A stretch of 64,000 nt of DNA. Source: Tomocerus qinae. Lineage: Eukaryota > Arthropoda > Collembola > Entomobryomorpha > Tomoceridae. A program made the position numbers and the translations under genes. The notes below the pieces were generated by a model, which saw only the letters and a program-made list of their open reading frames with translations, ran no database searches and had not been told where the DNA came from. Positions 8,701 through 50,566 of this stretch are shown here, one piece after another (position 1 is the stretch's first letter; each line of letters begins with the position of its first letter). Location: contig CM034546.1 of the NCBI GenBank assembly GCA_020055645.1, forward strand, positions 59,954,001-60,018,000. Direction: 5' to 3'.

Positions 8701-8764
8701 AGTTAATCCGGACATGCACTTTGATCCTCAAAAAGCTCATCTGTATGTAATGACTGAACGAAAG
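5738..8764 (+). other. Sema domain of receptor gene 1 (exons 1-4)
   Basis: Four phase-0 exons encode a signal peptide ending near LCSSS, then a plexin-type Sema beta-propeller. Recognisable stretches are HLVVHKETGILYMGAVNKLY, CGNLYQGVC, YVGVTYTG, YVDPxx-type strand repeats and, at the end, DPQKAHLYVMTERK, which in plexins leads straight into the first PSI domain. Exon 4 contains no stop before its donor at 8765. The Sema exons are missing from receptor gene 2. Confidence 0.85.
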
Positions 8765-11700: not shown

Positions 11701-14700
11701 TGACCTTACCACTACAGATATTCCTCTCAGTTAGTCTGAGAGAGCCATTATATCTTTCCCAGTCTATCATACACATATATATACCTGACGGTGCTAATAA
11801 TGAGACTGTTAGGTATTTCTAGAATATTATTTTCAACTCACATTATTTTTCATAGATAGTAATACATAAACGTATTTTGATGTACTTGTTATACAGGAAA
11901 GAATCGTCTCGAATCGAATGCAGAACTGGCAATACAAAAAGGAAAGGAAAGTGGCACGTGATTGTGAAATTTGACCAAAGAGATAGAATTTATGAACCGG
12001 GATTTACTTATGTGGACAATCCAGAGGTATTTTTTGAAAAGGTACGCAGTGTTTACTTCTGGAATTGATCATTGTAAAAATAAAATTTAGTTTAGTAATT
12101 TCGCTTACTTTATTTTTAGGAAAACCCCGTTCGTGGTATTCCAGCTGGTGGAATCAATATAACAGTAGAGGGCAGAAATTTCGACGTTGTTCAAGAATCG
12201 TACTTATATGTTGTCTATAATGACACCAAATACATAAGTGTAAATTATAGACACCAATTTTTATGTCTAGTAGAGCAACTAATTATATATCTAGTACAAA
12301 TAGTTCATAGTTTATTTTAATTTATAGTTTCATTTGTCATGTACAGCGGTGCAATATCTCCGGGAGTGAAAGAATGTTTTGCTTTTCACCAACTTTTGAC
12401 GTTACCCCAAACTTTTCGGATGCTGAAGCCAAAAATGGCTATCTAACACTGCCGTATGGCTTCATTCTAGACACAATATTTTATCCTGTACTTAGTTTAT
12501 CACAAGAAAACCCCCAATTTATTTTGTTTCCTAATCCTGAATATCATCAGTTTGAAGAGAAAACAAAGAAGTACAAAAGTGACTACCTGACAATTAATGT
12601 AAGTGGATTGTTTTACCAGAAAAAAAATGCTCTACGTGTTAATTTGCCGAAATAAAATATTAAAACGCTTTCATTTATTATATCAGGGAAGGAATTTAAA
12701 TCTCGCTTCGGATGAATCAAATGTAGTAGTTCTAATTGGGAACAGCACTTGTAATGTAACATCGCTGTCCAAGAACCAGTTGACATGTAAACCTCCAACT
12801 GTTCAACCTCCAGACGTTAGGGAAGACGGTCGAGTCGACCAATCAAAGCCACCCACAGTTATGGTTAGTCAATAGATGCAAGGTAGTACAAAGTGTGGAG
12901 TCGTAAAGAATATTTTACCTCGCAGTCTCACGTTCTGCTTATAACGTTATTTGTTATAGGTAAAAGTTGGAAGGAATCTCACTTATATCATTGGCCGCCT
13001 AAGCTATGATCATGGATCAGTAGCCCAGTTTTCTCAGAAAATAATGTACGCCATGTTTGCTGGCGGCTGTGTTCTTATTTTGGGCTTTATTATTACTCTG
13101 CTCGCATACCGCCGAAAATCGACGGAGAATAATCGTGTTCTTAAAAATATGCAAGAACAAGTGGGCGTGCTTGAACTAAGAGTTGCTGATGAACACAAAG
13201 AAGGTATACCTATGCAATACATCAATTCGCCATATTTTCAATGTTATTTATAGGAAGTTCTTAAGAGCCAAAGCATCCGCTAAATATACCTTTGAAAGCA
13301 GACACATCTAGCTGCAACAGTTATGAAAATCTTGGACACCACTTTGAGAGCCAGCTGCTCAGGCCTCTAATTCATATTAGGGGTCGAGATTTTAGCCACT
13401 ATAATGAATAGTGTGAATTTTGAACAGGCACTTTAAATGGTTTTTAAATGGTTGGCTTTACTTTAAAAAATTGACGAAATCTTTAGTCGACAATCATTTA
13501 AAAAAAGAACAACAGAAAATATTGCCTTGAAATATAAAAATATATATCTCGAAGCACGGAAAAACAGAGGGTGAAAGGTCCTTTTTTTGTAGACCGGAAA
13601 GTCAAAGTAAAATGTAGCCGAAGGTTGGGGGACATAACATTACAACATAACATAACAGTTTACAGTTATCAAGGAGTAGGACTCCGGTAACATGCGGGTA
13701 ACCATATACGTCACCTGTTTAATACATACCGGGCAACAGACATGAAAAACCGAATTAAAAAATTTTAAAATTCGGTATCTTTTATGTCTGTTGTCCGGTA
13801 TGCATTAAACAGGTGACGTATATGGTTACCCGCATGTTATCGTAGACCTACTCCTTGATAACTATAAACTGTACGTTATGTCCCCCAACCTTCGTCTACA
13901 TTTTACTTTGACTTTCGGGTCTAGAAAAGAAGGACCTTTCACCCACTGTTTTTCCGTGTCTCGAAGTATAACCTTTCAAGCCTTTCTTCTGTAGAACGGC
14001 GACATTGTACTAGTATGACCGTTCCATGTCAGGTTATACTAGGATAACCGACAACCGTGGTTTCATAACTGTTTCATTCTTAAATACATTACAAATCATG
14101 CGTTAATAAGACCACTGTCAATCATAGGTTATTATACATAATATGCTACTATTTTATAATATGATTATAAATTTGTTCAAAAACTTATCTTGATTTGTAT
14201 ATGAATGAATCAAATTAAGAATTATGAGTAGATAAGAAAGGGTAGATTCTTTAAAGAAGGGGCTAAGTGAGACAGTCTGACAGGCCTCAATGAATGCAAT
14301 TAATTCTTAATTATTATTTAGATATTAAATCTCCATTATTATTATTATATCATTAATATCTAAATATTACTCAATCTATTCATGTTATATTGTATAATCT
14401 ACGATTCACAATTGTGCTTTTACGGTCCTTATAGACGTTTCCCATAATTCCAGGATAACACAGACATGTATTGGAGTCATTTCAATATCTATTCATGTTA
14501 ATTTGGTGGGAAACCTTTATTTTATCACAATTTTTTTTAAATTAATACACTTAATATCGTTAAGTGAGGAGGGATAATTTTAACGCAAAAATTATGCAAC
14601 ATTAAATACTACTTTATACTGTACTATTGATTTAAGGTATATTTGTGTATATTGCTTTGCTCCCGCTCAAAAAAGATATTACATACTTAATGTCAACGGG

Positions 14701-17700
14701 TACAATTGACCATTTCTACAAAAATCCATCCTCAATAATCTTTAAAAATTATGATATAAGAGTAAATACATAAGAGACCATGCAGGCTCGGAACAAAATG
14801 TCCCAGCCAAAGTTGTTACTTTCAGATTCTAATCTACTTAGTGATATGAAAAAAACAATTTCAGGATTTTTTTTGAAAACCCGCCGTTTTTAGATTATGG
14901 CGGTTTTCCGCCTTATGTCGTTCATCTATGATTCATTTCTAAACTACTTGACCGATTTACATGAAACCGGCGCCATTCTGCTCGCAAACGCTTTCATCAC
15001 ATGGCCCCTTTTTTAGTTTTTAAATTTTTTATCAAAACTTTGAAAAATCTTTCGAAAAATTTGGAAAAAAAATTTTTTTGGACGTTTTTGTTAGAATCAT
15101 TATTAAATGCGACAAAAACGCTAATTCTGACCAAAAACTCAATAATTAGGGTGTATATATCAAAAATAAAGCCATTAAAATGAATGAATGAAAACCACTA
15201 TTGAGTTTTTGGTCGGAACTAGCGTTTTTATCGCATTTAATAACAATTCTAACAAAAACGTCCAAAAATTTTTTTTCGAAATTTTTCAAAATTTTTTTCA
15301 AAATTTTGAAACAAATTTGAAAAACTAAAAAAAGGGCCATGTAATGAAAGCGTTTGCGAGCAGAATGGCGCCGGTTTCATGAAAATCGGTCAAGTAGTTT
15401 AGAAATGAATCATAGATGAACGACATAAGGCGGAAAACCGCCATAATCTAAAAACGGCGGGTTTTCAAAAAAAATCCTGAAATTGCTTTTTTCATATCAC
15501 TAAGTAGATTGGAATCTGAAAGTAACAACTTTGGCTGTGACATTTTGTTCCGAGCCTGCATGGTCTCTTATGTATTTACTCATAATGGTAAGTAAAGTAA
15601 AAAATTAAACATTATCTGCTGCTACTCGTTAAAAATCAATTAATATGCAGTTACCTATTATGAATAATTAAATAGCTGGCATGACCAAACTAATGTAAAA
15701 TATATAATTTGATTCCGAATTTTGAAAACTTATTGTAATATATTAACTACAATATAAACATATTGTATGTCGTATACATTTATTTATATTTCGAACTTTA
15801 ATATTTTTTATTAGCCCCATATAACGTCCATACATTTACTGTCATCTCTTAACTGTCATTTGTAGATACAATGGACAACGAAATGAGAGAAATTTATATG
15901 CTACTAAATGGAAAGGCAAGCAAAGAAAGACGAGACTTTGAAGACCGTGAATCTACTTTTGAACCAGCAGAATATATTTTCGACGATAAATATGAAATCC
16001 AAAAGCATTCATTTATAATTGGTAAGCAAACATTCAATTGGTAGTTGTGATGTTGTGAATAGCATACTGTAGTTTCAAATTAATTTGTTGGAAACTTAAG
16101 ATCGAAACTTGGTGCTCGGGAAAGGTGAATTTGGAGAAGTGTACAAAGGAACCCTCCACGGAATTGAAGGTAGCGTGGCTTTTAAATCTGCACGTCCAAG
16201 TGGCAGTCTTCTGTACTTAAAGGCGTTGGTGTCCGAAGTCAAGATACATATGCACATTGGACATCATAAAAATTTAGTTTTACTTTTGGGAGTCTATAGA
16301 AGAGAAATAAAGTCAGGTAAGTAAAGTTTAAACAACTGTAGATTATTCTAATTTCTTTAGATTTAAATGGTACTATATTTATTAGGTGTCTTCTATGTTG
16401 CCATGGAGTTTTGTGAATTCGGGTCTTTACAATCTTTTTTAAACAAAAATAAACCATTGTTTTTGGAATGCCCGTTTTTAAAATCGAAAAACAATATAAG
16501 CACGTCTTTGGATTATCAAGCTAAAAACAATTGGTAAAAGATAATAATACATAACACTAAATATATATCAAAAATTGATATTGAAAATTTATAATTTTTG
16601 AGAATAATGTAATGCTTGTTTTTATCATGTATTATAATGTAATGAGGACAGCAACCTGCTCAAAGATAAATTATTGTTTCCCTGCTCCATAACCAGCTTA
16701 CTAAAATGGTCCGGGCAAATTGCAAATGCTATGGAATATCTTGGCACAAAAAATGTTAGTAAATGATTTTTAAAAGTTTGAATTTATTGACTTATGGAGT
16801 TAAGTTAGAGATAGTTAGTTAGTTTACTATTTATTTAGTCATTATTATTACTACTATTAAAAAAGAAAGTCATTTTGTGTATACTTCATGTATGTCTGTC
16901 TTTCTGTATCTATCTACCGAGAATCAACAAAGTAGAACCCCCACGATCACGATCCCTACATGGGTAGGGTAACAATCTAACCTAAAATAAACTAACTCAA
17001 CTTGTCCATGCACCGCCACTGTAAGGTGTATTTTGTCAACCCCTTGTCCATCTGTCTCAGAGCTTCTCCTTGCATCAATAAATTCCGCCAAAAATTTTGA
17101 TTGAAGTAAATTTGTTGAATTCCTTCTAGGATTTTGAAATAATGTCTGTATAGTATTCATTTCCATTTCCGTAATTCATTTTACTGTATTTCCAAAGGTG
17201 GTGCATTCGGATTTGGCGACAAGGAACGTTTTGCTGAATTCGAACGGTGACGCGAAAGTGACTGACTTCGGTCTGAGTCGGCAGACTTACAATTATTCGG
17301 AATATGTCAAGACAGCCAAAGATCCTTTACCTTGGCGTTGGTTGGCAATCGAGTGTCTCCAAAACAATACATTTTCATCGAAATCGGATGTCTGGGCATA
17401 TGGAATAACTTTGTGGGAAATTTATTCTTTGGGTAGAATTCCCTACCCTGGAATTTCGCCCACATTAGAATTTGTGGAGTTGTTGGAGAAGGGGTTAAAG
17501 AATCCTCATCCCAAATATGCATCCAATGAAATGTATGTAATATATTATATAGCTAATTAAATGATCGCATATAGTACATATGGGGCATTTCGGAGCACTC
17601 ATAGGGCTGTAATATGTAACTTTAATTTACTATTTTGGACTCGAATTTTTATGCACAACTTTCACTTACCCGTGTTTTTTTACGTCACTATTTCACTTAA

Positions 17701-18732
17701 ATACGCTGTGTATGTAAAAGAGTGCAACGTAATAGGTGTTTTTCAGAAGTAGAAATGCTTAAAGGTTTTCAGAAATTGAAATCAGTATTTATTGTCAAAT
17801 TTTAAGACAAGGGGCCAACTAACGTACTTAGGTATTATTGTTCCAAAGCAACTTTCTCCCAGTCATTAGAAAGACAATTTTTTATACAATAGAGTTATCT
17901 TCAGCGAGAACTTGGAGCAGAGAACATCCACATGTGAGGTACAACCGCACTATATATAAACCTGGGAGGTAATTTATGACCGTACCTGGGTATACATTTA
18001 CTATAGGGATAAAATTCAAAGCAAGAAAAAAATTTCGGTGGGGCACAAATTTTAGCGATATTTTTCCGTTATTATTTTTTCCTCGCTGCTGCGGCCTTGT
18101 TCAAGGCAACGGTAGCTAAAGCACCAAATATCATCCGTGTTTTATACTTTAGTGCAACTAACAATATCTTTTAATGTTTAATTTACTCGCGTCTTCGCAG
18201 CGATTATCTACTAAAACATTATTTGTAATATTTTTGACATTTATGTGGTGACATTGATATTTTGAGTCAAATCTGTTTTTCTAATTTTGAAAATTCGTTG
18301 GTTGATTTTAGCTTAAATCAGCCAATGACATCAGTGTCATTAAGAAAGGTTACGTGGTTGCCACGCACAGGTCTTATGTTCTAAGTCTAATATCGGTTAA
18401 CCTGGGAATCAATGACGTCTTAGTGTCGTCGTAAATTTAATCATTTTTGTTATAGATATAGCGTGATGATGCGTTGTTGGAATTTAAACCCCGACGACCG
18501 TCCAAGTTTTTCTTCAATGAAAAAGATTTTTGAGTACGCGGTATTAAACGGGATGGACAACATTAGCGAGAAGGTATTGTATTACGTATCCATGCAAAAA
18601 TAGAAACATTTACTATATTGACTATGACCCATCACAATTAATACTACTCTTCTGTTTTTAAAGGTTCTGACACAGGAAAACTTAAATGATATTGCCATAC
18701 AATTGGCCTTAACAGATTATACTGTAATATAA
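5738..18732 (+). CDS. Receptor gene 1: Sema-PSI-IPT plexin ectodomain, single TM, tyrosine kinase
   Basis: Predicted from 24 exons with consistent GT-AG sites and phases: 5738-6250, 7658-8275, 8370-8552, 8636-8764, 8846-8946, 9044-9182, 9270-9435, 9512-9729, 9851-9979, 10299-10407, 10494-10753, 10844-11163, 11897-12041, 12120-12239, 12347-12598, 12687-12863, 12960-13203, 15866-16021, 16101-16316, 16386-16533, 16652-16754, 17198-17532, 18456-18573, 18664-18732. They give about 1655 residues: signal peptide, Sema (to about 480), three PSI domains, IPT repeats, one TM helix (about 1222-1244), the start of the plexin juxtamembrane region, then a tyrosine kinase (about 1327-1640). The plexin GAP domain is absent. 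The layout matches MET/RON by design, but the ectodomain is plexin-like with three PSI domains. It should be a surface receptor signalling by tyrosine phosphorylation; the ligand is unknown (semaphorins are the family precedent). The TM-to-kinase splice is inferred from phase and needs a transcript. Confidence 0.82.
8846..12863 (+). other. PSI and IPT ectodomain of receptor gene 1 (exons 5-16)
   Basis: PSI1 (exons 5-6) has CSEYPSCNECVEAGDPYCGW. PSI2 (exon 8) has TCTSCVTSAFPCDWC. PSI3 (exon 11) has NCGMC and CGWCQ. IPT repeats follow: RSFHPSSGPWEGGTNVTIEG (exon 11), INPSRGPIGGGTRLTIFGEH (exon 12), a third with GIPAGGINITVEGRN (exon 14), and a fourth with CNVTSLSKNQLTC (exon 16). Order and motifs follow plexins closely. 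Exon 10 (10299-10407) is 102 nt shorter than its counterpart in gene 2, an in-frame loss of 34 codons. Confidence 0.88.
10037..10263. mobile_element. hAT-like MITE in an intron of receptor gene 1
   Basis: The element starts with CAGGG and ends with CCCTG. It is flanked by a perfect 8 bp target-site duplication, ATTGCAGT (10029-10036 and 10264-10271), the size typical of hAT elements. An inner inverted pair CAGGGCCGCAGC / GCTGCGGCCCTG is also visible. It lies just before exon 10 and leaves the splice acceptor intact. Related copies occur at 48368-48494 and, decayed, near 18017-18105. Confidence 0.8.
12960..13203 (+). other. Plexin transmembrane exon of receptor gene 1
   Basis: This phase 0 to phase 1 exon encodes the last extracellular strand (VKVGRNLTYIIGRLSYD), one hydrophobic helix (MYAMFAGGCVLILGFIITLL), a basic stop-transfer (AYRRKS), and the coiled-coil-like plexin juxtamembrane start (LKNMQEQVGVLELRVADEHKE). 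In plexins the next exon would begin the GAP region. Here the phase-1 donor at 13204 matches the phase-1 acceptor of the kinase exon at 15866. Confidence 0.85.
13370..14750 (+). pseudogene. Relics of the last two adhesion-GPCR 7TM exons inside gene 1
   Basis: Two stretches align with 7TM exons of receptor gene 2. Bases about 13370-13530 match 38260-38410 (intron end and start of the TM6-TM7 exon), sharing for example AATATTGCCTTGAA with AATATTGCTTTGAA. Bases about 14560-14750 match 38540-38718, including the TM7 end GIFVYI in place of GIFVFIF and the MSTGTI in place of MSTEII. The exon end ATAATG followed by GTAAGT lies beyond the foldback element, at 15582-15592. Stops and two insertions destroy the reading frame. 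In gene 1 this is now intron sequence. Confidence 0.8.
13548..13967. mobile_element. 420 bp foldback element inside the 7TM relic
   Basis: Two arms of about 200 bp are inverted copies of each other, for example GGTGACGTATATGGTTACCC against its complement, separated by a short AT-rich loop near 13760. It sits directly after the conserved part of the TM6-TM7 relic, so it probably inserted into that former exon. No coding capacity. Confidence 0.85.
14760..15581. mobile_element. 820 bp foldback element splitting the last 7TM exon relic
   Basis: The ends GAGTAAATACATAAGAGACC and its complement face each other, and inverted homology extends through almost the whole element to a loop near 15170. 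ATAA lies on both sides and may be the target duplication. The flanks together rebuild the end of the former last 7TM exon, with its splice donor GTAAGT at 15587 just outside the element. Confidence 0.88.
15866..18732 (+). other. Tyrosine kinase domain of receptor gene 1 (exons 18-24)
   Basis: Seven exons encode a receptor-type tyrosine kinase. The glycine loop is LGKGEFGEV (about 1332-1340), the ATP-binding Lys is in VAFK (about 1355), and the helix C Glu is in SEVKIH. A kinase insert of about 50 residues follows SLQSFL. The catalytic loop reads HSDLATRN (Asp about 1487), with Ser where HRD has Arg. DFG is at about 1505, the activation loop has three tyrosines in TYNYSEYVK, and LPWRWLAIEC replaces the usual APE region. 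The tail ends YTVI. All residues needed for phosphotransfer are present. The split insert recalls PDGFR/VEGFR-like kinases, but subfamily placement needs a tree. Confidence 0.9.
18017..18105. mobile_element. Decayed copy of the CAGGGCCGCAGC MITE family
   Basis: The stretch AAGAAAAAAATTTCGG followed by an AT-rich core and CGCTGCTGCGGCCTTG resembles the element at 10037-10263. It lies in the intron before exon 23 of receptor gene 1. Confidence 0.6.
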
Positions 18733-22250: not shown

Positions 22251-23145
22251 ACCGAATTAAACACCTTGAATTCGATATCTCAAGGGTCGTACATATAGCC
22301 CTATCGTTCTATAGTGTGTGCAAAAAGTCATTTCACATTTAAAGAAGATAATTTCAGAATAGGAAATTCAGATTTCATTTGAGTAAGGATGCCGTAGCGA
22401 AGAAAACTTTTTTATGCAAAATTGCAAAATGTCTGCATGAACTATTTGACTCGTGTATTCAGAAATTGATCGTCTGAATCGCCTTTAATTTGTGAAGTCA
22501 CACAATATAGATGATCCAGGTAATAAAAAATAATATTAATTACAATATTGCGTTATGAAATGGAGTGTAAAAGCAGTTTTGCTAGACATTGTTTTTATTT
22601 AAAAATCAGTAAAAATTAAGCTAAGACGTTTAAATGAAAACGATTTTACTATTTTATACGATAAGAATTTCATGTACTCTATTATTGTGTAATGGCTACA
22701 GAATTCATAGAAAGGTGTAAATTATTTTCGTTAATACTTGTGACGTAGATTTTATTTATTTGCGATATTGCAACAAAATAAATTGAGGCATTATTCTCGT
22801 GTATGCTATCCCGATCGATTGAGTTTAAACTTCATTTAAGCTAAACATGAAAATAATTAGTATTATACAATTTTATTATGAAACCCTAGAGACGAAATCT
22901 AATTTAGTTACGCAAAAGTGACCTGTTAAAGTTTGCCATAGCTGCATGCAGTTAATTTTAATATTTTTCTTCATTGAACTGAATATAAGTTTACCGTATT
23001 AAAAGAATGGCAATGACCTTAATATGTACGCGTTTATTTTAGGACAAATGGAATTTCAATACAAATAAAAGATTGAAATTGCATTTGTTATCATCATTTT
23101 CAGGAAAAGGAAAGCAGAATTAGAAAAGGGCGATATAACGACAAG

Positions 23146-24582
23146 ATGGGAAAAACACCAAGTGAAGTTGATACTGGAAAATCAAAAGTAAAAGCGAAAA
23201 ATGGGAATTTTGAATTAACAAGAGTAAGAAGTGAACCCAAACCTGCTGTATCTAAATTACATCATAAATCCAAGGGTTATAAATTAAACAATCTTGCTGA
23301 AAAAGGAATCCAAAAGAAATATTTCAAGTGTAATTTTTGTGGCAAATCCTATACAGTGTATGACCTATTGAACACGCACATTAGAAATCACACAGGAGAA
23401 AAACCCTTTAATTGCAATTTTTGTGGTGAATTATTTGCACGACAAGACAATTTGAGCTTTCATATCCGGAGACATAATGGGGATCTGCGTTTTAAGTGTC
23501 CTCAATGCAATAAATCATTTTTACGAAAAACGCATTTAAACAATCATCTGACAACTCACAGTACAGAAAAGCCTTTCAAGTGTGAACAGTGTAATAAATC
23601 CTTTTCACGCAAAGGTCATTTGAACTCACACATTAAACTTCACAGCACAGAAAAACCTTTTCTATGTAATGTTTGTGGAAAATCATTCGTGGTAGAATAT
23701 TATCTCAAAAATCATCTTAGAAGTCACAGCGGAGAAAAGCCATTTCAGTGTTTTGTCTGCCAGAAAACTTATACGTACAGACAGCAATTTTCTACACACA
23801 TTCGAACCCACACAGGGGAAAAACCTTATAAATGTGATGTCTGTAATAGAAGTTTTGTGGATGTTAGAGATTTAAAAAGTCACAAAAGAATTCACAGTGA
23901 CGAAAAGTCATTTCAGTGTGACATTTGCTACAAATCCTTCACACAACGACAGGGATTATATAGCCATAAAATAAGCCACAATTTAGAAAAACCATTTCAA
24001 TGCAATTTCTGTAGCAGACCGTTTTTAAGGTAACCATATTTAGACGTGCATATAAGACGCCATACCAAGGAAAAACCTTATCACTGCACATTCTGCACCA
24101 AATCATTTACAACTTCAATCGCGATGAAATATCATTTGAGAGTTCACACAAGAGAAAAACCTTTTCCGTGCAAATTATGCAGTAAATCATTTTCGTCGAC
24201 TGCAAGCTTACGAATTCATTTACAGTTTCACGAGGAAAATGAGAAATTTCATTGCGAAGTCTGTAGGAAATCATTTAAGCAAAAATATTATTTAAAAACA
24301 CATCAGAAGATACACAGTGAAGAAAAACAATTTCAGTGTAATACATGCTACAAGGCTTTTGCTCACAAATCATATATAAATGTACACATTGCTTATTGTC
24401 ACAAAAAAGAAAGATCTTATAAATGTAATTTCTGCTCTAGTGTTTTCTATTTTCGGAATGCGTTATATCGTCACATTCGAATCCACACCAATGAAAAGTA
24501 TTTCCAGTGTGGTCTTTGCAAAAAGGAGTTTGCACAAAAAGGATATTTAAATGCCCATAATAAGAGACTTCACAATCATTGA
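23146..24582 (+). pseudogene. C2H2 zinc-finger gene with one internal stop
   Basis: A single reading frame encodes a basic leader (MGKTPSEVDTGKSK) and 15 C2H2 fingers joined by TGEKP-like linkers, the layout of DNA-binding transcription regulators. One TAA codon at 24031-24033 lies in finger 9, where the paralogue at about 47985 has CAA (RQPHL). Upstream of the stop are 8 full fingers (295 residues); downstream the frame stays open for six more fingers. As written it yields a truncated protein with 8 working fingers. A splice acceptor (TTTTCAG at about 23102) lies before the ATG, suggesting a non-coding first exon. It may be a recent pseudogene, a truncated active gene or a sequencing error. 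Confidence 0.85.
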
Positions 24583-30799: not shown

Positions 30800-33700
30800 A
30801 TGTCGTGGATGATAATTACTACTGCGTTTTTAAGATTAGTCTTGCACTCTCCTCATATCGTGGCAACGTTTGTTCCTCCTCCTATGGTAGGTCATAATGA
30901 TTTGTCCTTCCTCCTAATTCGTATCTTTAAAATATTTTACTAGCAACCAATTGTAATTTAATATCCATAGATTTTAGAAGCTTTAGCGCACAAATGTTCA
31001 GAGTATACTTCGTGTAACGAATGTATTGAAGCAAACGATCCTTGTGGATGGTGTTTCCCTAAAAACCAGTAACCTGATTTGATTTACATTCAATTTAGAA
31101 AATCATTATTAAACCCGATTATGGTAAAGCTGAAAATAATTGTAAACTGAAATTCACAGATGTACGTTGGACATTTATTGTTCAAAAGGAAGTGAATCGC
31201 CATCTCTTTATTGGATTTCATATGCAGGGGGTCTATGTGCTAGAATAACTAAAGTTACTCCTAGTCAACTTCAAAGCTCAACAGCTCGCACGGTAAAAAA
31301 TAAAAAGTTTACACCATAGTATATTTAGCACTTGAATATAAATGAATATAAATTGAACTTGATGCAGTTGTCATTGAATATTGCTCAAATGCCAACACGC
31401 TCAGGACAATTTTGGTGTGTTTTCCGTTTTCCTAATAGGAAAACTCTAAAAACCCATGCCAATTTAACCAATGATGGCGTCACCTGTTACACTCCACCAA
31501 CATCAGATTTACCCCCAATTCCAGCTTTACAACGTAATTAATGCATACGTTAATTAATTTATTTTTTCACCTGAACGGTTTACTGATTTGGTTTGTTTAA
31601 TTGCTTCAGATAATTTCACGGCGACTTTATCGGTTAGTAGAATGTCTCAGGATGGATTAGCACCTGTTGATTTCGTGTCAACTGACTTTGTATTCTTTGA
31701 TTGCAATACTTACATGACGTGCACTTCCTGTGTTATGTCTGCATTTCCCTGCGATTGGTGTATTAACAAACATAGGTGTGTTCATGATATATCAGATCAT
31801 TGCAGAACTGATATCATAGTCACTGGACTCAAAGTAAGTCTTGCAAGATTTATCGTGTATGTACAGTGGCATGGCAATCACTACTTAGTACATGTATTGT
31901 GTAATATATGGTGAGCATGTATTAAATCTCATGATTATTATTCATTATATAGAGAGTTGGTCCAAGCCTTCGTACTGGACCTGACTTTTGTCCTAAAGTA
32001 TATGTTGCAAATGGTTTATCGGAAATATTAGTACCTTACGGAACATCTAAGAGGATTCAAGTGAAAGTGGACAATATCGGAGTATGGAAAGAAGTATCTC
32101 CATTTAAAACATTATCATTCATTGTAATATTGCAATTTACAAAATTTATAAACTTATTTTAGCAACAAATTATTGTCGCAACTCGGTTTTCGTGTCGATT
32201 CAATATTGAAGGACGAGTGACTTCTGCCAATGCTCACTTTGTAGAAGATACACTATATTGCGATTCAATTTCATTTAATTACAATTCTCCATCTTCCAAT
32301 ATAACAGTACCATTCACAGTGGTTTGGGGCGGAGGAGAAACCAAAATTCTTGATAACCCAGACAACATTTACAGTATGTCGCAAACAATAAGTATGTACC
32401 CATTGTATGGACTTCATGGTTTTAAAGGTGTGCTCTTTTTCACATGTATAGTAATTGTATATCGTTGTTCTGCAATGGCTGAGAATTGTGGCATATGTTC
32501 GTTAACGGACGAAAAATACGGTTGTGGTTGGTGTCAGAGTTACAACCGTTGTGAAGTAAGGGAACAATGTGACAATGGTATGGGGGTCTGGCTCAATCGT
32601 GATCAGATATGTCCCAATGTGGAAATCCGTTCATTCCATCCGTCTTCAGGACCTTGGGAAGGGGGCACTAACGTTACCATTGAAGGAATTAATCTCGGAA
32701 AAACATTTGATGTAAATCGTTCGGCTTTTGAGATGGGTTGATATAGGATATTAATCTCAACGACTATAGTTTGTGGTTATGTGTTTGTTTTCTATTGTAG
32801 GATATCTATAGTGGTGTAACAGTTGCTGGACTTCCCTGTAAACCGTATCGTAGTTTGTATAAGCAAACCCGGCGAATTATATGCGAATTAAACGGACCAG
32901 GAATTAATAAGCCTAAGGCTGGACCAATTATCGTCAAAGTTGGTGACTTTAGAGCTGAATCAGCCAAAAATTACAGTTTTGTTGACCCTATAATCAAAGG
33001 CATTAATCCCACCCGAGGATCTATCGGTGGTGGGACCCGACTTACTATTTTTGGTGAACACCTAAGCTCTGGCAGTCGCATCCAGGTTTTTGTGGATAAC
33101 GTCCCATGCTCCATTTTACTGTATGTCTAAATTTAATTCATTCAATCCCTTCCTAATTCTAGAATCCTTGTTATTTATTCGTCATATTTATTTTTGTTGT
33201 TAGATTTCCCAGTTTTAGGGTTAAGAGTCACTATGAACTACATGTAAAGATAATTGTTTTGCATTGCACTTAGTTAGAATAAAGGGAAAATACTGACATA
33301 AAATTTAAACGCATTTGATCTATTTGTTTTGTAGAAAAGAACCATCCCGAATCGAATGCAGAATCGGAAGAAGCACAAAGAAAGGAAAATGGGACGTGCT
33401 TGTAAAATTGGATGAAGGAGATAGAACTTATGAGCCGGGATTTACTTATGTGGATAATCCAGAGATAATCTTTGAAAGGGTTGGCAGCATTCACGTCTTG
33501 AATTGTTTTAGTAGTGAAAGAACCCAATATGTTCCTGGACAATTTGTAACTTTGATGTAATCATTTTAGGAAGAACCTATTCGTGGTATTCTAGCTGGTG
33601 GAATTAATGTGACGGTAGAAGGCAACAATCTCCAAGTTGTTCAAGAACCGCTCATGTATGTTATCCATAATGGAACCAAGTACATTGGTGTAAGTTACAG

Positions 33701-36700
33701 AGTACAATTTAAAACCGGACAGGTCAACTAATTATGTACTATATACCTAGTTTACGTTTATACTTGTATTGGTTGTTTTATGTATAGCCGTGCAATATTT
33801 CCGGAAATGACAAAATGTTTTGCTTGTCACCAACTTTTAACATTTCTTCAAAATTGTCGGACGCTGAAGCCAAAGATGGCTATCTAAGACTGCAATATGG
33901 CTTTATTCTGGATACAGTATCTTATCCTGCACTAAATTTTTCTCAAAAGAACCATCAATTTCTCTTATTTCCTAATGCTCGAGCTAATCAGTTGGAAGAA
34001 AAAATTAAAGTAAGTAGATATACTTTACCAGACTATAAAATTGATATATGTTTTGTGATATATTAAATACATTATACGCTACGGCTTAAGGCTACGATTT
34101 ATCCACATTTTTAAAACTGTCCCGAGCTTCCTGAAAGTATTCAGATTTTGAAAATATGTCGCAATTTTTTATCGTACTGAACAATTAACAATTTCACATG
34201 ATTCAAAATTGGACATCAAAATCTGGGCCTGGTTTATAAAATAGCAACAGCACCCTCGAACTACCAGACATTTGGCAACCTTGTGAGGTTGTTAGCCAAC
34301 GCATTTCCTATATGCAAATTTATAAAAGTACGTTAAAATTATTTAAACTAAAAATTTAAAATGGTACATAGTTCTCAAATTTATTAAAAATTTCTTTAAA
34401 AAATATTATTTTATACAATTTACAAATTTAAAGGAGTTATTTATGACGTAACTCAATTTATTTATTTTAACCCAATTTGTACAATATTATGCTATGTATT
34501 AGACATTATGCGACGACAACTTTAGACGAAGTTCATACTACAAGCACTATATAGTAGGTAAAAAATATTGTAATCATTAAATTATTTTGGCTCTCTTCCT
34601 TTCTTAAAATGTCCCGCTTTTTGGTTTAGAGAATAGTGATTAGTAGCCTTACTAAAAAGGCCCATTTTTGTACGCATATTTGGTATATTTCTCATTATGC
34701 TTACATGTCCTCCCCGGCCATTAATTATATTGCTGCTAATGAAACGTAATTTTGTTTGAATATAGATTTCAAAAGTTTTAAAACACAAATGTTCTTCAGA
34801 GTATCCTTCGTTTAACGAATGCGTCAAGTCAAAACATCCCTGTTGTGGATGGTGTTCGCAACAAAACAAGTTCGTGCCGATTTATATTTTATAACATTAG
34901 TTTTGATTGAGATGGTGTAAATTTTGAGATATATGGAACAAAGACGAAGAGAAATATTGAAAAATTAACGTTACCATTACCAACTAGCAAATAACGACAA
35001 CTCTAACAGTGATTTAATTTTTAATTTTCTAACATTGTAATGGCGATCGACTGGGTTTACACAAAAAGTAATACTACAAAACAAATGGAATATTCAGAAT
35101 GCCTTATAGAACTACAAACCCTTATTGATTCCTCAAATGGAGTAATTTTATTTAATTTTGATTAATATTAAACCATGTGGATTAAAATTACTTAGGGTTT
35201 GTTTCTTTATCTTGTAGGCGTTGAATGCTAAAGTTGCCATCCAAACATTAGAAATATTAGTAGAAAGTGTAGCACAGAATGGAAATCATTCTCGTAGTTA
35301 TTCAGGAGATGACATTTTAAAAACAGCCTTTCTAGCACATGATGTTATTTTAAAAACCGAAAACAATACTACCCAATACAGTTTGGAGAAAATCGCCGAG
35401 ACAACTATAAATGTCTTTGGTAGTTTATTAACGAATGAACATCAATGGGCACAGGTAGAAGTTAAATGGAAATACATAGAAATATTTTAAAGTTATTATA
35501 TACATAATACAATGACTTTTCTCTTGTTTTATACATTTTAGTGGGAAATTCCTGGTGTCTTGTCTTTATTTTTGAATGCGTTAGATTCTGCTGCAACGAA
35601 GCTTGCTGAAAAGATCCCTGCTATGGGAAACACTTCAAAAATATTTCACTTTATGAAAAATGATATTCAGGACTCCATCTTGGTATTCTTAGGTGCATCA
35701 AACAAGGACAACTTGTCAAATATAAATATTCATGTGAAAGATGAAACCGTCCCTTTTAAAAATTCCATTTCCATGGTAATACAATCAGTTATCTCAAGCA
35801 ATCAGTTATCCATCCCTTATTATGCTGTTACAATGATACAACCATTTTATATAGAAAATATCTTAAGAAGTACAACCGGAAGGTAAAAGTGTTATTTTAT
35901 TTTACAATTGTAGAAAATAATATAAAATTAGTACGTCTTATTGTTTGCAATTGGTTCTGAAATTAGTTTTCAAAATGAAAGCGACCAACACATAAATATA
36001 TTGAATGGAAAATTAATAATGATGTCCCCTTATGCCAAGCTAAAATATAGGAATTCTTTGAACTTTTATACCAGAGATGGTAATAAAATACAATTATATT
36101 ATTATCACCTGTGTAAATGATGTTTATATTACCTTCATATTTCATTTGAGTGCAAATAATTTTAATGTTTTCATAGATCTCATTCCCAATGTAACAATTA
36201 AATTTGCACACAAAGTAAGGGCTGTGTATAATCCCAATAATGCATTTAAACGAAAATTACACCCAGGAGAGAAGAGAAAAGCAATTTTGGGGAATTCCAC
36301 ATGTGTATTTTGGAACAACCAAACAAGGTAAGCTTTGTCTTTTAAAATTGAGTTAGATATACGAGGTCATAATTTCTAGAATTGTCAAAACATTTTGAAC
36401 GTTGCACTGTCATTGCTATTATTTTTGCAATTAAGAGTACATGTAATATACATAGATTACAATAAGACTAACTTTTTTGACGAGTATGTTAAAGATCTGT
36501 TCGTAGACAAGTTTCAAAAATCCTATGCGGTTTTATAAATTCCAATTAATAATTTCAATATATTTATGAATGACCTTGTCTCGTAAAGTACTTTCAGCAT
36601 CCCAGTGGGAAAACTGATTAACGTCAAGGGATTTGGGGTATCAGATAAGGTACCTTGGATTTTATGTTGAATGATTTTTAAATGCTGTAAAAACCAAAAT

Positions 36701-39700
36701 GAATTATACTAGGTAGGTTAAAATATAAAACATTATGTTTTAAGGCCTAGTCTAATATTTTTATTGAGCTTAAAAGTTAAATTATCAAACACACTCAGAG
36801 ACCAACTGTTCTTAAATTTAGATTCTAAAGTATTATAATTATCTTAAATAAATATAATTATTGTAATTAATGATTTGCTCTTGTGACTTCTGTAGCAAAT
36901 GGACGGTGGAAGGGTGCAAATTAGTTACAACGGATGAATTTGTGACCGTTTGTGATTGTGATCGTTTCGGTCCATATTCTGTCTTAACTGGAGTTCACCA
37001 ATATTTGGTAAATTTATAATATAAAAACGTTTCGCATTACACAATTTTATATTTTTATAAAACGCAGGGAAAAGATTTGGAACTACAAATTTTAACTTGG
37101 TTGCTGTTTCCGTTGTCCATAATTTGTCTTGTACTGTGTGTGGGAAGCTTTTTGCTGAGAAAACATGGAAAAATAGACCAAACGAAAATAAATGTACATC
37201 TTTGCATCTCGTTAATTGGGGGAATCGTTTTTCTTCTTCTCGGAGACAAGGATAATCTTCATTTGTCAGACGTAAATTAATTTATCTTATTCCATAATAA
37301 ACCATTTATGCAATTACTAGCCAACTTAACCTACTTTCAGGAAATATGTACGGTATTTGGAGTGCTGACTCATTTCACCTGGTTGTGTACCTTTGGTTGG
37401 ATGGCTGTAGACGGAATTGATTTGTACATTCAAGTATCTCAAATTATGCCAGCCACAACCAGCCATTTATGTAAAATATATTGTGCTATTGCATATGGAA
37501 TGCCAATGGTGGCTGTCATTCTTACTTTTACTATTGGACATTCATCTACAGAAAACTCCCATATTTACGTCGGTGAAATGTTGTAAGTTATAAATTGCAA
37601 TCTAAGTCCTATCGGGAATTACTAGACATGATTAATAATCAATTTACAATAATATTTCAGCTGCTGGCTCCAAGATAAATACATTTGGGGCTTTGGTGTT
37701 CCTGTGATAATTGTAGTTTTGGTACCTAGTCAAATAACATTTTTCATTTCTGTTTATCAAGTGATATTGTATACTTATATTATTTTTATACTGAAAATAT
37801 ATTTTAGGCAAACATATTAATTATTGGGTGCACACTCTTTGCGCTGGCAAATAGGAAAACTTCAAAGGACACTACAGTCAGAACAAAAAATTCCTATCGG
37901 TAATGTTAAAAAGTATCAACAAGTGTTTTAGCCAGATCCCCACTTGAATACAAAACCTGAACAGTTAAGGCTATTTTATAAGGTAAAGTTTGGTAGGCAC
38001 TGAAGCAATACTTTATTATGTGTCTTGCACGCTTTTTATGCCAAGTTTCGAAAACGCTCTAAAATGTCATTCAAAATTGTCGAATTTTCATTAAACCCAA
38101 TAAGCAGGATTTACGAAAATAAAAATTTTAGTTGTTTTTCCTTCCCTTGTAAAGTAAATGGGATTTTCAAATAGTACAGCAGACATCTACTGAAACAACT
38201 GTGCGAATCTTTCTCATCACTTTTAGGGCAAACGCTCTCAGGTTTGATTAATTTCATTTTGGGGGTCTAGGTTTTAGACACTAATTGGGTGTGCAACTTA
38301 AATGGTTTATTTCAGTGCACTAAAACTAACTAAAGACGTTTACGAAATCTCTACCCGACAAACATTTAGAAAAAGGAATGCAGAAAATATTGCTTTGAAC
38401 GTAATTTTAGCCATAGCATGGATATCTGGTGTCTCAACTTTGGTAGATTTCCAAGGACATATAGTATGGCCTTATGCGTTTACGGTTCTTATTTCATTAC
38501 AGGTATTATTTTATTAAATATCGATATTATCGGTATCGATAAATTCAGGGAGATAATCATTACGCAATGCAATAATTAATATTAAATACTGTGTACTTAG
38601 GGTATATTTGTGTTTATTTTTCGCTGCCCGCTCAACAAAGAAATTCGGCGAAGATTATACATAATGTCAACAGAAATAATCGGCCGTTTCTTCAAAACTC
38701 CATCCGAAAATTATAACGGTATGAAAAAAATTACAAATATAATCCAATAGTTGGTATCTGCAACAATAACTTTTAAAAGCGAATTAATTTTCAGTTATTT
38801 AATTAAATAGTTTTATTGACTAGACGTATTAGCCCCATATAGCGTCCATATACCTTTACTGTCATACGTTAACTATCATTTAATTGTAGATGGAATAAAA
38901 AATGAATTGAACGAAATTTATATCCTGTTAAATGGAAAGGCAAGCAAAGGAAAACGAAACTTTGAAGGCCGTGGCCGTGAATCTACGTTTGAACCTGCAG
39001 AATATATTTTCGACGATAAATTTGAAATCCAAAAACATTCATTTATAATTGGTTAGTAAATATAATCGATTAGTAGTTGTGAATATCATTTTGCAATTTT
39101 AAATGATTTTCATACACTTCAGATCAAAATTTCGTGCTCGGGAAAGGTGAATTTGGCGAAGTGTACAAAGGAACCCTCCATGGAGTAGAAGGAAGCGTGG
39201 CTTTTAAATCTGCACGTCCTAGTGGCAGTACAGTATACTTAAAGGCTTTGGTGTCCGAAGTCAAAATACATATGCACATTGGACATCATGAAAATTTAAT
39301 TTCACTTTTAGGAGTCTATAGACAAGAAATAAAGTCTGGTAAGTAATTAGTACTACTATTTTACGTAAGCTAAGCATCTAGATACTTGCATCTTTTGGAT
39401 TTTTATGGTAGGTACTATTTATTAGGTGTTTTCTATGTGGCCATGGAGTTCTGTGAATTCGGATCCTTGCAATCTTTTCTATACAAAAACAAACCATTAT
39501 TTTTGGAGTGTCCGGTTTTAAAATCGAAAACTAAAATAAGCATGTCTTTGGATAATCAAGCTAAAACCAACTGGTAAAAGATGATAATATGACAAAATAT
39601 AAAAAATGTATATTAAAAATTTATATAGGTAAATTTTGAGAATAATGAAATTATGCATGTTTATATAACGTATTATAACAAACGACAGCAACCTGCCCAC

Positions 39701-40844
39701 AAATAACTTATTGTTTCCTTGCTCCATGACCAGTTTGCTAAAATGGTCCGGGCAAATTGCAAACGCAATGGAATATCTTGGAACAAAAAATGTTAGTAAA
39801 TATATTTTGTTAAGTTTAAATATATATTTACTTATTAGTTATACTGTTAGATGCGTTACTGTTAATAAGAAAATCATTTTTATGATAATGAGTCCTTCAT
39901 ATTCGAAAGAGGAAATACTTTTATACAATGCCCCACTTTTATGACTTTCTTATTACTTACATTATTGTGTTACCATTTTATTTATAGCTTAATTTCTCTG
40001 GAACGTAAAAAATGAAGTAACACACAATTGACAATCCCAGCTAGACATTTTGTGTACAACATTTAAAGCAATCTTTCGGTTTTCATTAATCATTTCATTG
40101 TTTTTCGAGGTGGTGCATTCGGATTTGGCCACAAGGAACGTTTTGTTGAATTCGAACGGTGACGCGAAAGTGACTGACTTCGGTCTGAGTCGGCAGACTT
40201 ACAATTATTCGGAATATATAAAGACAGCCAAAGATCCTTTGCCTTGGCGTTGGTTGGCAATCGAGTGTCTCCAAAACAATACATTTTCAACGAAATCGGA
40301 TGTCTGGGCATATGGAATAACTTTGTGGGAAATTTATTCATTGGGTAGAATTCCCTATCCTGGAATTTCACCCACATTAGAATTTGTGGAGATGTTGGAG
40401 GAGGGGTTAAAGAATCCCCAGCCCAAATATGCATCCAATGAAATGTACATAATTTAGCATCAATCACATAATGTATATCTACTGTAGACTAGTAGACGAA
40501 TCCGAGAATGTATGAAGTCAGGGTTTCGTAAATTGAATCATACATTGACTACATTTTTTGTTATAGATATAGCGTGATGATGCGATGTTGGAATTTAAAC
40601 CCCGACGACCGCCCAAGTTTTTCATCAATGAAAAAGATATTTGAGTACGCTGTTGCAAATGCAGTTGACAACATTACCGAAAAGGTAATGTATTAAACAT
40701 ATTACATGCAAAAATAGAAACATTTAATAATTCTGGCTATGACACACAATTAATATTACCTTTCTATTCGTATAGGTTCTTGCAGAGGAAAACTTAAATG
40801 ATGTTGCAATACAATTGGCCTCAACTGATTATACTGTTATATAA
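30800..40844 (+). CDS. Receptor gene 2: PSI-IPT ectodomain, GAIN-GPS-7TM adhesion GPCR module, tyrosine kinase
   Basis: Predicted from 29 exons with matching phases: 30800-30886, 30971-31068, 31160-31292, 31368-31533, 31610-31833, 31953-32081, 32163-32373, 32452-32711, 32801-33120, 33335-33479, 33570-33689, 33788-34009, 35218-35454, 35542-35882, 36151-36327, 36896-37007, 37068-37271, 37341-37582, 37661-37721, 37808-37899, 38316-38502, 38601-38718, 38890-39051, 39123-39338, 39426-39573, 39689-39791, 40110-40444, 40567-40684, 40776-40844. The protein would be about 1678 residues: weak signal peptide, three PSI and several IPT domains, GAIN and GPS (about 706-994), seven helices (about 998-1270), then a tyrosine kinase (about 1350-1665). 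Sema and the plexin TM are gone. It would couple a GPCR core to tyrosine phosphorylation. The weakest junctions are 34009 to 35218 and the acceptor at 36151. The relic in gene 1 supports the 7TM-kinase link. Confidence 0.8.
30971..34009 (+). other. PSI and IPT ectodomain of receptor gene 2
   Basis: Exons 2-12 match exons 5-15 of receptor gene 1 in order, phase and sequence. They give PSI1 (CSEYTSCNECIEANDPCGWC), PSI2 (TCTSCVMSAFPCDWC), PSI3 (NCGIC...CGWCQ) and IPT repeats up to the YGFILDT strand. Exon 7 (32163-32373) keeps the 34 codons lost from gene 1. The fourth IPT exon of gene 1 has no counterpart. The start codon at 30800 lies 14 codons inside the gene 1 frame, because the original ATG is ATT here. 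Confidence 0.88.
34010..35217. other. Large intron of receptor gene 2 between IPT and GAIN modules
   Basis: This stretch holds a relic PSI exon (34766-34869) but no trace I can find of the fourth IPT exon or the plexin TM exon. It is the junction at which the GPCR module joins the plexin ectodomain. Confidence 0.6.
34766..34869 (+). pseudogene. Extra PSI1 exon relic in receptor gene 2
   Basis: An acceptor-flanked segment reads ISKVLKHKCSSEYPSFNECV then CCGWCSQQNK, a clear copy of PSI1 (gene 1 exon 5, 8846-8946), with one framework Cys changed to Phe. It ends in phase 2 with a GT, but the next exon (35218) needs phase 0. It therefore cannot be spliced into the reading frame unless an unseen exon follows, and is probably a skipped relic. 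Confidence 0.75.
35218..37007 (+). other. GAIN domain and GPS motif of receptor gene 2
   Basis: Exons 35218-35454, 35542-35882, 36151-36327 and 36896-37007 encode a GAIN-like helical part (AIQTLEILVESVAQNG, LDSAATKLAEKI) and its beta part (VTIKFAHKV). The GPS box follows, with CVFWNNQTSKWTVEGCKL and CDCDRFGPYSVLT. All four GPS cysteines and both tryptophans are present. The usual cleavage site His-Leu-Thr/Ser is replaced by Arg-Phe-Gly. Autoproteolysis, the normal maturation step of adhesion GPCRs, is therefore unlikely. Confidence 0.83.
37068..38718 (+). other. Seven-transmembrane (adhesion GPCR, class B2) module of receptor gene 2
   Basis: Six exons encode the helices. TM1 is in ILTWLLFPLSIICLVLCVGS, TM2 in INVHLCISLIGGIVFLLLGD, TM3 in CTVFGVLTHFTWLCTFGWM, TM4 in IYCAIAYGMPMVAVILTF, the conserved CWL of loop 2 with TM5 in WGFGVPVIIVVLANILIIGC, TM6 in NVILAIAWISGVSTLV, and TM7 in YAFTVLISLQGIFVFIF. 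The Cys pair of TM3 and loop 2 is kept. The tail LNKEIRRRLYIMSTEIIGRF follows the family pattern and ends in phase 1, in frame with the kinase exon at 38890. No stop intervenes. Confidence 0.9.
38890..40844 (+). other. Tyrosine kinase domain of receptor gene 2
   Basis: Seven exons match the gene 1 kinase exons in length and phase, apart from two extra codons in the first. LGKGEFGEV, VAFK, SEVKIH, HSDLATRN (Asp about 1510), DFG (about 1528), TYNYSEYIK and LPWRWLAIEC are all present. The Arg of HRD is Ser, as in gene 1. The tail ends STDYTVI. The reading frame is intact. Confidence 0.9.
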
Positions 40845-46100: not shown

Positions 46101-46832
46101 TTCAAAACTATTGCCAGGCAGGTTATGAAAATATTAACTCATCGTTATAGAAATGGAGTGTCACTTATTTAATTTCAAAATCAGTGAAAATAAAGTTGAA
46201 ACGAATAAATGAAGGCAATTTTAAAATTTTATACGACAGGTTTAAACGGTAAGATCAATTTTAAGCACTTTATCGTGTAATGACTAAACAGTTGACAGAT
46301 TTTATAGAAAAATCCTTTCAGTAAGATACGGAGTAGTATGCATGTACATGTACTAAAAACCAAATTGGCCCATTGTTTTCATGTCTGCTACCAAGATTAA
46401 GGCGGGGATTTAATCCTTAATCTAAATCACAGGAAAAGAGGAAATTTTAAAAATCGTAAAAATTTGGAAAAATATGTAAGAGATTTAAATGTCTACGAGC
46501 TAGATATCCAAATATTTTACAGTTCAATTTTACTGGACAAAAATGGTAACGGCAAAAGCGACGAGTTAAATTCTTTTCCTACAGTTATCCAATATTCAAT
46601 ATATATTTAATTTTAATAATATCTCGACTTTGAAATAAATTATAGAAATCGAAACATTGATAATAATGTTAATTTTAAGTAATAGTATGAAGTATGACTT
46701 TAATGCACCCCAAGCATTTTTATGCAACAGAGTTTTAAGATGCACTTGTAATTATATTATGCATTTTATTACATTTAAATAATTTTCAGGAATAAGGAAA
46801 GCAGAGTTAGAAAAAGTCGATACAACAAACGG

Positions 46833-48365
46833 ATGGGAAAAACACAAAGTTACGTTGATACCGGAAAATCAAAAGTAAAACCAAAAAATGTGGATTTTGA
46901 ATTAATAAGAGCAAAAGATGCAGCCAAAAATACTATATCTAAATTACGTCGTAAATCATCGGGCCATAGATTAAACCAACTTGTTGGAAAACATAACGGA
47001 AAGAAGGGTTTTAAATGTTATTTCTGCAACAGATCGTCTACAGGCTTTGCTAAATTGAACATCCACATTAGAAGTCATACAGGAGAAAAGCCCTTTTGTT
47101 GCAATTTTTGTGGTCAATTCTTTGAACGAGAAGCCACTTTGAACTTACATATACATATCCGGAGACATAATGGGGAACTCCATTTCAAGTGTTCCCAATG
47201 CAATAAACAATTTTTACAAAAAACACATTTAAACAATCATCTGACTACTCATAGTACAGAAAAGCCTTTTAAGTTTGATCAGTGTAACAAATTTTATGCA
47301 CGGAAAAGTCATTTGACCTCACATACTAAACTTCACAGCACAGAAAAACCTTTTCAATGTAATGTTTGTGGAAAATCATTCGTGGTAGAATATTATCTAA
47401 GAAATCATCTCAGAAGTCACAGTGAAGAAAAACCATTTCAGTGTTTTGTGTGCCAGAAGACATTTGCATATGGACAGCATTTTGCTGTACATGTAAGGAT
47501 CCACACCGGGGAAAGGCCTTATAAATGTAATGTCTGCAATAGAAGTTTTGTGGATGATACAGAGATTTAAAAAGTCACAAAAGAATCCACAGTAACGAAA
47601 AACCATTTCAATGTGACCTTTGCGACAAATCCTTCACTCAACGACAAGGATTAAGTAGCCACAAAATAATCCACAATTTAGAAAAACCATTTCAATGTAA
47701 TTTCTGTGGCAAATCGTTTTTATGTCAACCATATTTACACTTGCATATAAAGATCCACACCGGGGAAAAGCCTTATAAATGTGATGTCTGTAAAAGAAGT
47801 TTTAGAGATGTTACAGATTTAAAAAATCACAAAAGAATCCACAGTAACGAAAAGCCTTTTAAATGTGACCTTTGCGACAAATCTTTCACACAACGACAGG
47901 TATTAAGGAGCCACAAAATAACTCACGAATTAGAAAAACAGTTTCGAAATTTTGGATGCAATTTCTGTGGAAAATCATTTTTAAGGCAACCACATTTAGG
48001 CTGTCACATAAGAAGCCACACCGGGGAGAAGCATTATCACTGTAATTTCTGCCCCAAGTCATTTTCAAGTTCTAGTGGTTTAACATACCATTTGAGATTC
48101 CACACAGGTGAAAAGCCTTTTCAATGCAATTTATGCAGCAAATCATATGCATCGAATCAAAATTTGAAGACACATATGGAAACTCACAGTGAAGAAAAAC
48201 CAAATCAATGTACTCAATGATTAAAAAAATTTTCTTGCAAAATGTGTTTAACTGCACATATCATTTGACATAGCAAAAAAGACCTTTATAAATGTAATTT
48301 CTGCTGTAGATCTTTCCAATTTCGTTATAAATTAAACCAACACATTCAAATCCGTACCGATGAAA
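46833..48365 (+). pseudogene. Damaged C2H2 zinc-finger gene
   Basis: The leader MGKTQSYVDTGKSKVK and fingers match the gene at 23146. Fingers 1-6 are in one frame, but finger 4 has lost its first Cys (FDQCNK). At about 47555 two extra bases relative to paralogues (GATACAGAGATTTAAAA against GATGTTACAGATTTAAAA-type) shift the frame and end the ORF after 245 residues. The second frame then stays open to 48220 with eight more fingers, ending after NQCTQ where a further disruption occurs. The last finger piece (about 48285-48365) is cut by a MITE. An acceptor at about 46790 again precedes the ATG. It may still express a six-finger protein. Confidence 0.85.
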
Positions 48366-50564: not shown

Positions 50565-50566
50565 GC

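Follow-up and report, generated by a model that had tools for sequence, protein, structure and literature searches.

Can a single animal gene encode a receptor that crosses the membrane with the seven helices of an adhesion G protein-coupled receptor (GPCR) and then continues into a tyrosine kinase? By the usual view, GPCR and receptor tyrosine kinase (RTK) signalling run through separate proteins in animals. The question is raised by a locus of the collembolan Tomocerus qinae, which we analyzed within a window of 64,000 nucleotides (C1:59954001-60018000 of the 334-Mb assembly; C with a number denotes a contig). Two related genes, here called A and B, are found in this window (Table 1). The sequence gives good support for gene B as one intact predicted gene with a stalk of plexin type, followed by an adhesion receptor of seven helices and by a tyrosine kinase, in which two receptor classes that are usually separate seem to be merged. 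As a whole, the evidence is best explained by a real chimeric receptor gene, and we regard this explanation as probable.

Gene B was modelled independently of the first-pass annotation of this DNA, by reading in three frames followed by anchoring at splice sites. All 29 introns are of the GT-AG type with continuous phases, and the joined exons contain a single terminal stop and no internal one; the two alternative frames of the same exons contain 112 and 117 stops per 1,696 codons. The donor of exon 20 was set at 37721 (vs. 37760) after an adhesion GPCR paralogue at C1:5.98 Mb, which gives the length of 1,696 amino acids and raises the score of the 7tm_2 domain from 83.6 to 103.8 bits. The first-pass annotation had counted 29 exons with matching phases; the phases agree with our model, which has 30 exons. 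Four exons that it had delimited (33788-34009, 35218-35454, 38601-38718 and 38890-39051) are identical in both, and its claim that the tail of the seven-transmembrane (7TM) part ends in phase 1 and that the kinase exon accepts phase 1 is borne out at exons 23 and 24.

The proposed succession of PSI/IPT repeats, GPS, seven helices and a complete tyrosine kinase without a stop was likewise recovered by our model and by Pfam, for which domains were counted only above their own cut-offs. The 7tm_2 match covers profile positions 3-250 of 250 (cut-off 20.6 bits), the PK_Tyr_Ser-Thr match scores 253.1 bits (profile 6-256 of 258) and GPS scores 35.2 bits (cut-off 22.5). In the stalk, matches to TIG (81.1 bits, two stretches), TIG_2 (73.4), TIG_plexin (58.5) and PSI (62.3, three stretches) correspond to three PSI domains and four TIG/IPT domains of plexin type. 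A Sema domain was not found in gene B by Pfam, though one was found in gene A; it is absent from gene B because exon 1 is followed there directly by the first exon for PSI, at the place where gene A holds the Sema exons. The plexin RasGAP domain (Plexin_cytopl) is absent from both genes according to Pfam. The catalytic lysine, the glutamate, the catalytic-loop aspartate and the DFG motif are all present in the predicted kinase at checked positions, and we take K1411 to be the catalytic lysine and E1428 the alpha-C glutamate, with HSD and DFG in their usual roles. Among solved structures, those nearest to the whole kinase are PDGFR-alpha (~226 bits) and KIT (~204 bits), the 256 bits of the top-ranking EGFR entry being a sum over repeated copies, and the one nearest to the 7TM part is the latrophilin ADGRL3 (140 bits). 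A GAIN domain with a GPS box had also been annotated. The GPS stands, and GAIN is assigned by position: both Pfam and a 6-sequence profile compared with the PDB match only the GPS end of this region, and the part before the GPS shares 35-51% identity with five adhesion GPCR paralogues of the same genome (joined fragments, of which two cover about half to three quarters).

Table 1. Coordinates of genes A and B, their parts and other features; positions are those of the window unless a contig is named.
Feature	Position	Strand	Remarks
Gene B, predicted plexin-stalk/adhesion GPCR/tyrosine-kinase receptor	30800..40844	+	30 exons, 1,696 amino acids
Gene B exon 1, start codon and hydrophobic leader	30800..30886	+	Homologous to gene A leader; putative signal peptide
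Gene B exons 2-12, PSI-TIG-PSI-TIG-PSI-TIG-TIG	30971..34009	+	Plexin ectodomain without Sema; Pfam
Relic of first PSI exon in gene B intron 12	34766..34869	+	104 nt, open, AG/GT-flanked
Gene B exons 13-16, up to GPS start	35218..36327	+	GAIN assigned by position and adhesion GPCR paralogues
Gene B exon 17, GPS end	36896..37007	+	CDCDRFGPYSVL; no HL|S/T cleavage consensus
Gene B exons 18-23, seven transmembrane helices	37068..38718	+	Class B2; phase-1 donor at end
Gene B intron joining 7TM tail to kinase linker	38719..38889	+	171 bp
Gene B exon 24, juxtamembrane linker (LNEIYILLNG)	38890..39051	+	Homologous to linker of single-pass RTKs of the same genome
Gene B exons 25-30, tyrosine kinase and short tail	39123..40844	+	K1411, E1428, HSD (D1528), DFG (D1546)
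Gene A, tandem sister	5738..18732	+	24 exons, 23 GT-AG introns, 1,640 amino acids, intact
Gene A exon 17, plexin-type transmembrane segment and juxtamembrane part	12960..13203	+	Phase-1 donor; 77% identical to plexin at C3:23.583 Mb
Relic of intracellular loop 3/TM6 exon in gene A intron	13471..13531	+	Score 67; maximum 31 in 60 shuffles
Relic of TM7 exon in gene A intron	14636..14731	+	Score 77; maximum 30 in 60 shuffles
C2H2 zinc-finger frames next to gene A	23077..24582	+	
C2H2 zinc-finger frames next to gene B	46779..48220	+	
Tyrosine recombinase (phage-integrase family) and reverse transcriptase frames	49626-53265	-	
LINE-type frames: endonuclease, reverse transcriptase with RNase H	133-3648	-	
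Three tRNA-Thr (CGT) genes	59139-59208, 59603-59672, 60259-60328	two +, one -	Equal Rfam scores
Rhodopsin-GPCR matches in long frames, examples	C1:59930149-59930916, C7:1283323-1284096		

Whether these parts belong to one product can be addressed at the junction between the 7TM part and the kinase. Counted from the linker exon, the first methionine is M1433, which lies beyond K1411 and E1428, so that the kinase cannot start alone; if these residues have the roles given above, a kinase started at M1433 would be dead. From exon 13 on, the first methionine is M816, within the GAIN region, and the frame ahead of exon 13 stops at once. The GAIN piece and the kinase piece are without starts of their own, and neither therefore starts alone. 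In the 171-bp intron, no Met-started frame leads into exon 24; 24 codons without methionine are open into that exon, and the corresponding stretch of gene A has a stop. A transmembrane-like stretch was sought in the same intron and was not found (best 19-residue hydropathy 1.06), and a single-pass transmembrane segment ahead of the gene B kinase was rejected as a candidate at that place. Among the 52 introns of genes A and B, ranked from the lowest score in a leave-one-out comparison, the donor of exon 23 is 38th and the acceptor of exon 24 is 39th. We infer from these features that the 7TM part and the kinase are carried on one message, and a single fused protein is probably made from gene B. 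The joining could also be an artefact of prediction or assembly, in which an adjacent plexin-stalk gene, adhesion GPCR and kinase gene were wrongly connected, and separate adhesion GPCR and RTK genes do occur in tandem at C1:5.97-5.99 Mb. There, however, the adhesion GPCR ends at a stop codon of its own and the RTK, on our reading, comes with its own leader and transmembrane segment. In gene B, by contrast, both downstream parts lack a start, and no separate transmembrane segment belongs to the kinase; the window also contains no N. We consider such an artefact barely credible.

Comparison with gene A gives evidence of selection. Over 366 codons of the linker and kinase, the ratio of nonsynonymous to synonymous substitution rates (dN/dS) between B and A is 0.174 at a dS of 0.31, and about 0.5 or more would be expected had the kinase been dead in gene B since the duplication; the linker and kinase are under purifying selection. 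The stalk exons (dN/dS 0.425 over 640 codons, dS 0.31) are also under selection, which is weaker than that on the kinase. The 1,857 nucleotides of GAIN-7TM coding sequence in gene B contain no stop. In a neutral simulation at 0.155 substitutions per site, 13.3 stops arose on average and none of 2,000 runs stayed free of them, and at 0.05 substitutions per site there were 4.8 stops with 0.65% of runs stop-free; what detracts from these figures is that the simulation comprised substitutions only and assumed that the 7TM part has been present since the A/B duplication. Judged in this way from the absence of stops, selection on the 7TM part is indirectly indicated. These estimates bear on whether gene B is recombination debris, that is, a recent product of unequal crossover which is open by chance or newly formed and has no function. 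The missing Sema domain and last TIG, the PSI relic in intron 12, the 7TM relics in the sister gene and the moderate lowering of dN/dS in the stalk would all fit such an origin; the low dN/dS of the linker and kinase, at a dS of 0.31, and the complete absence of stops where about 13 are expected neutrally speak against it, and we judge debris to be highly improbable.

Several further observations weigh against a functional fused receptor. The stalk value of 0.425 is only slightly below 0.5, and exon 2 by itself reaches 1.07. Exons 8 and 28 are unusually alike in the two genes (dS 0.10 and 0.12), and gene conversion with gene A could partly explain the low dN/dS of the kinase. The arginine of the HRD motif is replaced by serine in the gene B kinase, as it also is in L045, an RTK with leucine-rich repeats (LRR). 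The junction from transmembrane segment to linker is in phase 0 in two RTK relatives as read, vs. phase 1 in gene B. Exon 23, when read unspliced, stops after GMKKITNIIQ, 10 codons beyond the donor, and the frame of TM7 likewise runs into a stop in both adhesion GPCR paralogues that were read through (at 5.98 and 29.3 Mb), neither of which has a kinase. The last two points would be expected if the locus gave two products, a plexin-stalk adhesion GPCR that ends after the 7TM part (SENYNGMKKITNIIQ stop) and a kinase that is included only when a minor or an alternative splice form is made. This arrangement appears unlikely to us: the donor of exon 23 and the acceptor of exon 24 are good, and because the constrained kinase exons cannot start alone, it would still need a substantial fused form.

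The sister gene provides information on how the fused gene B could have arisen. According to Pfam, gene A has the order Sema-PSI-TIG-PSI-TIG-PSI-TIG-TIG-TIG, followed by a single plexin-type transmembrane segment (assigned by homology to plexin) and a kinase as in gene B; the last of its five TIG-type domains is absent from gene B. Its transmembrane exon joins the kinase linker in phase 1. In the intron between these two parts lie both 7TM relics of gene A, and relics of the nine GAIN-TM5 exons (13-21) were also sought in this intron, with none scoring above shuffled sequences. The relics of TM6 and TM7 in gene A are most simply explained by a common ancestor of A and B in which 7TM exons already preceded the kinase. 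Alternatively, the relics may stem from a later transfer out of B into A. On the former reading, the two copies would have undergone opposite losses: GAIN to TM5 disappeared from gene A, whereas gene B was left without Sema, without the last TIG and without the plexin transmembrane segment. The PSI relic in intron 12 of gene B, which is taken as unused because its 104 nucleotides would shift the frame into exon 13, fits another crossover (34727-34871 is 77% identical to 8809-8948). The zinc-finger frames beside the two receptors share 83% DNA identity over 1,003 bp; a zinc-finger gene has been duplicated together with each receptor. Gene A was apparently made anew from a plexin of this genome and a local RTK cassette.

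We propose that gene B is a chimera assembled by exon shuffling from three donors: a plexin copy of the same genome for the stalk, a lineage-expanded adhesion GPCR for the part with GPS and seven helices, and a juxtamembrane-kinase cassette from a large local RTK family for the tail. Stretch by stretch, the stalk is 61-83% identical to the plexin at C3:23.58 Mb, which has its own RasGAP domain; all 11 Plexin_cytopl matches in the genome are at C3:23.58 and 45.2 Mb. The 7TM part has its relatives in a set of adhesion GPCRs on C1 and C2 (e.g., C1:29.3, 6.55 and 5.98 Mb), with the TM1-4 exons sharing 60-61% identity with the copy at C1:29.317 Mb. The kinase and linker are related to single-pass RTKs (e.g., C1:32.03 and 59.50 Mb), including L045, with an LRR ectodomain (Pfam LRR_8, 115 bits), and L025, with an Ig-like ectodomain of which two exons each match part of an Ig domain below the Pfam cut-off. 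Since the junctions of L045 and L025 read in phase 0, the phase-1 acceptor may be special to genes A and B, which fits the plexin transmembrane exon. Taken together, these relationships suggest that three receptor families may have exchanged exons at matching phases. Among the matches listed, 7tm_2 loci with a same-strand kinase within 10 kb downstream are gene B, C1:5.98 Mb and C1:6.03 Mb, a lower bound as 115 of 1,302 and 150 of 282 kinase candidates were scored. The adhesion GPCR and kinase at C1:5.98 Mb read as separate genes, and the same order is seen at C1:6.03 Mb. At C1:5.97-5.99 Mb (L013/L014), an Ig/FN3-type adhesion GPCR lies ~1.8 kb upstream of the seemingly separate RTK, and this is the kind of neighbourhood that could yield a 7TM-kinase fusion. 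Two scans gave at least 169 and at least 151 tyrosine-kinase matches, mostly on the 140-Mb contig C1 among those listed, and many of them are clustered. One kinase cassette of this genome occurs both with LRR and with Ig-like ectodomains.

If gene B works as a fused receptor, it would be an adhesion-type receptor with tyrosine phosphorylation as its main output. The receptors could be clustered when the PSI/IPT stalk meets a contact or comes under tension, or when they pair with the sister protein A, so that their kinases phosphorylate each other in trans; the 7TM part would anchor the receptor in the membrane and regulate it, and may have retained G-protein coupling. We put forward the kinase as main output, acting by clustering, as a tentative proposal. 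It is also possible, short of probable, that gene B is a dual-output receptor in which the state of the seven helices directly gates the kinase, with A and B sharing stalk and kinase on a single-pass and an adhesion GPCR membrane module, respectively, and with an ancestor that held both modules, maybe as phase-1 splice forms. In either case, comparing A with B is a natural way to see what a kinase receptor gains from seven helices. The GPS of gene B reads RF|G and not HL|S/T; among adhesion GPCR paralogues with a readable GPS, HL[S/T] is found in 10 of 12 and HTT in 2 of 12 (14 loci were given for the comparison, and L010, L011 and L036 showed no GPS stretch). Self-cleavage at a GPS is unlikely without Ser, Thr or Cys at the cut, and the HL|S/T consensus is not universal among adhesion GPCRs. 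Because the gene B GPS lacks this consensus, autoproteolysis of its product appears unlikely, and an uncleaved receptor rather than activation by ectodomain shedding would be expected. The first-pass annotation had suggested an adhesion or semaphorin-type ligand and possible signalling by both the GPCR and the kinase route. Semaphorin binds the Sema domain of plexin (PMC7181871), so with this domain missing direct semaphorin binding is not expected, and the semaphorin part of the suggestion is weakened.

We compared gene B with known systems by their published descriptions. GPCR-tyrosine kinases (GPCR-TKs) have been reported for choanoflagellates and sponges and for no other metazoan lineage (PMC12716839). 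The first-pass annotation had described kinase-linked GPCRs from some protists, with no established animal family having this ectodomain, and for sponges this must be amended. The main text of that paper contains none of the terms plexin, IPT, TIG and sema. Like these proteins, gene B has seven helices followed by a true tyrosine kinase at the C-terminus of one predicted protein, and it differs, going by their description, in its eumetazoan host, plexin stalk and class B2 7TM part. By layout, gene B would belong to the GPCR-TK kind, and a eumetazoan case with a plexin ectodomain appears to be new. If this is true, an intact and selected eumetazoan fusion would mean that the GPCR/RTK barrier has been crossed again.

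A second point of comparison is Met-LP, which joins a plexin ectodomain to an intracellular tyrosine kinase through one transmembrane segment, occurs in lophotrochozoans and echinoderms, and has apparently arisen twice (PMC6374515). Genes A and B share the union of plexin ectodomain and kinase, and gene A can be likened to Met-LP by its layout of Sema, three PSI, plexin TIGs, one transmembrane segment and tyrosine kinase. Met-LP is a single-pass protein with a complete plexin ectodomain, whereas gene B has a GPS-7TM part and no Sema, which places it outside Met and Met-LP. Adhesion GPCRs of the latrophilin (ADGRL) type share 7tm_2 and GPS with gene B, which is unlike them in its C-terminal kinase, its plexin stalk and its lack of the HL|S/T consensus. 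In the first 300,000 of 412,533 characters of a 2026 review (PMC13197933), kinase domain and IPT have no match and plexin has one unrelated match. GPCR-bigrams (GPCR-TKL and GPCR-PIPK), described as rare or even nonexistent in metazoans, resemble gene B in having seven helices and a C-terminal catalytic domain, which in their case is a TKL kinase (oomycetes and amoebozoans) or a lipid kinase (widespread in protists, and in one sponge; PMC5784254). The terms kinase, IPT, sema, plexin and PSI gave no match in a term search of a paper on Amphimedon GPCRs (PMC4302439), and a figure legend on sponge receptors lists a symbol for a tyrosine-kinase domain, with attachment to a GPCR not visible there (PMC8242945). 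In titles and abstract beginnings of open-licence papers, no eumetazoan GPCR-tyrosine kinase fusion was found among the matches listed.

Several other features of the window and genome were noted. We take the element with the tyrosine recombinase frames to be a DIRS- or Ngaro-like retroelement. At least 149 rhodopsin-class matches were found in the genome when 147 of 448 candidates were scored. Open frames of ~1,000-3,500 amino acids on contigs C1, C2, C3, C4, C7 and C21 contain at least 14 rhodopsin-GPCR matches, full or partial, many of them with similar scores; a mobile element with a GPCR-like gene may be behind these. The 37 Wnt matches group into ~9 genes, three of which lie within 80 kb on C2. 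On the strength of the rhodopsin-class and Wnt matches, a sponge origin, which the large RTK set and the GPCR-TKs of sponges would have fitted, is rejected in favour of a eumetazoan. Several COX1 matches (C1:36670928-36672268, C1:139.1-139.85 Mb and C81) have in-frame TGA codons that are read through, and those on the long nuclear contig are probably nuclear copies of mitochondrial DNA.

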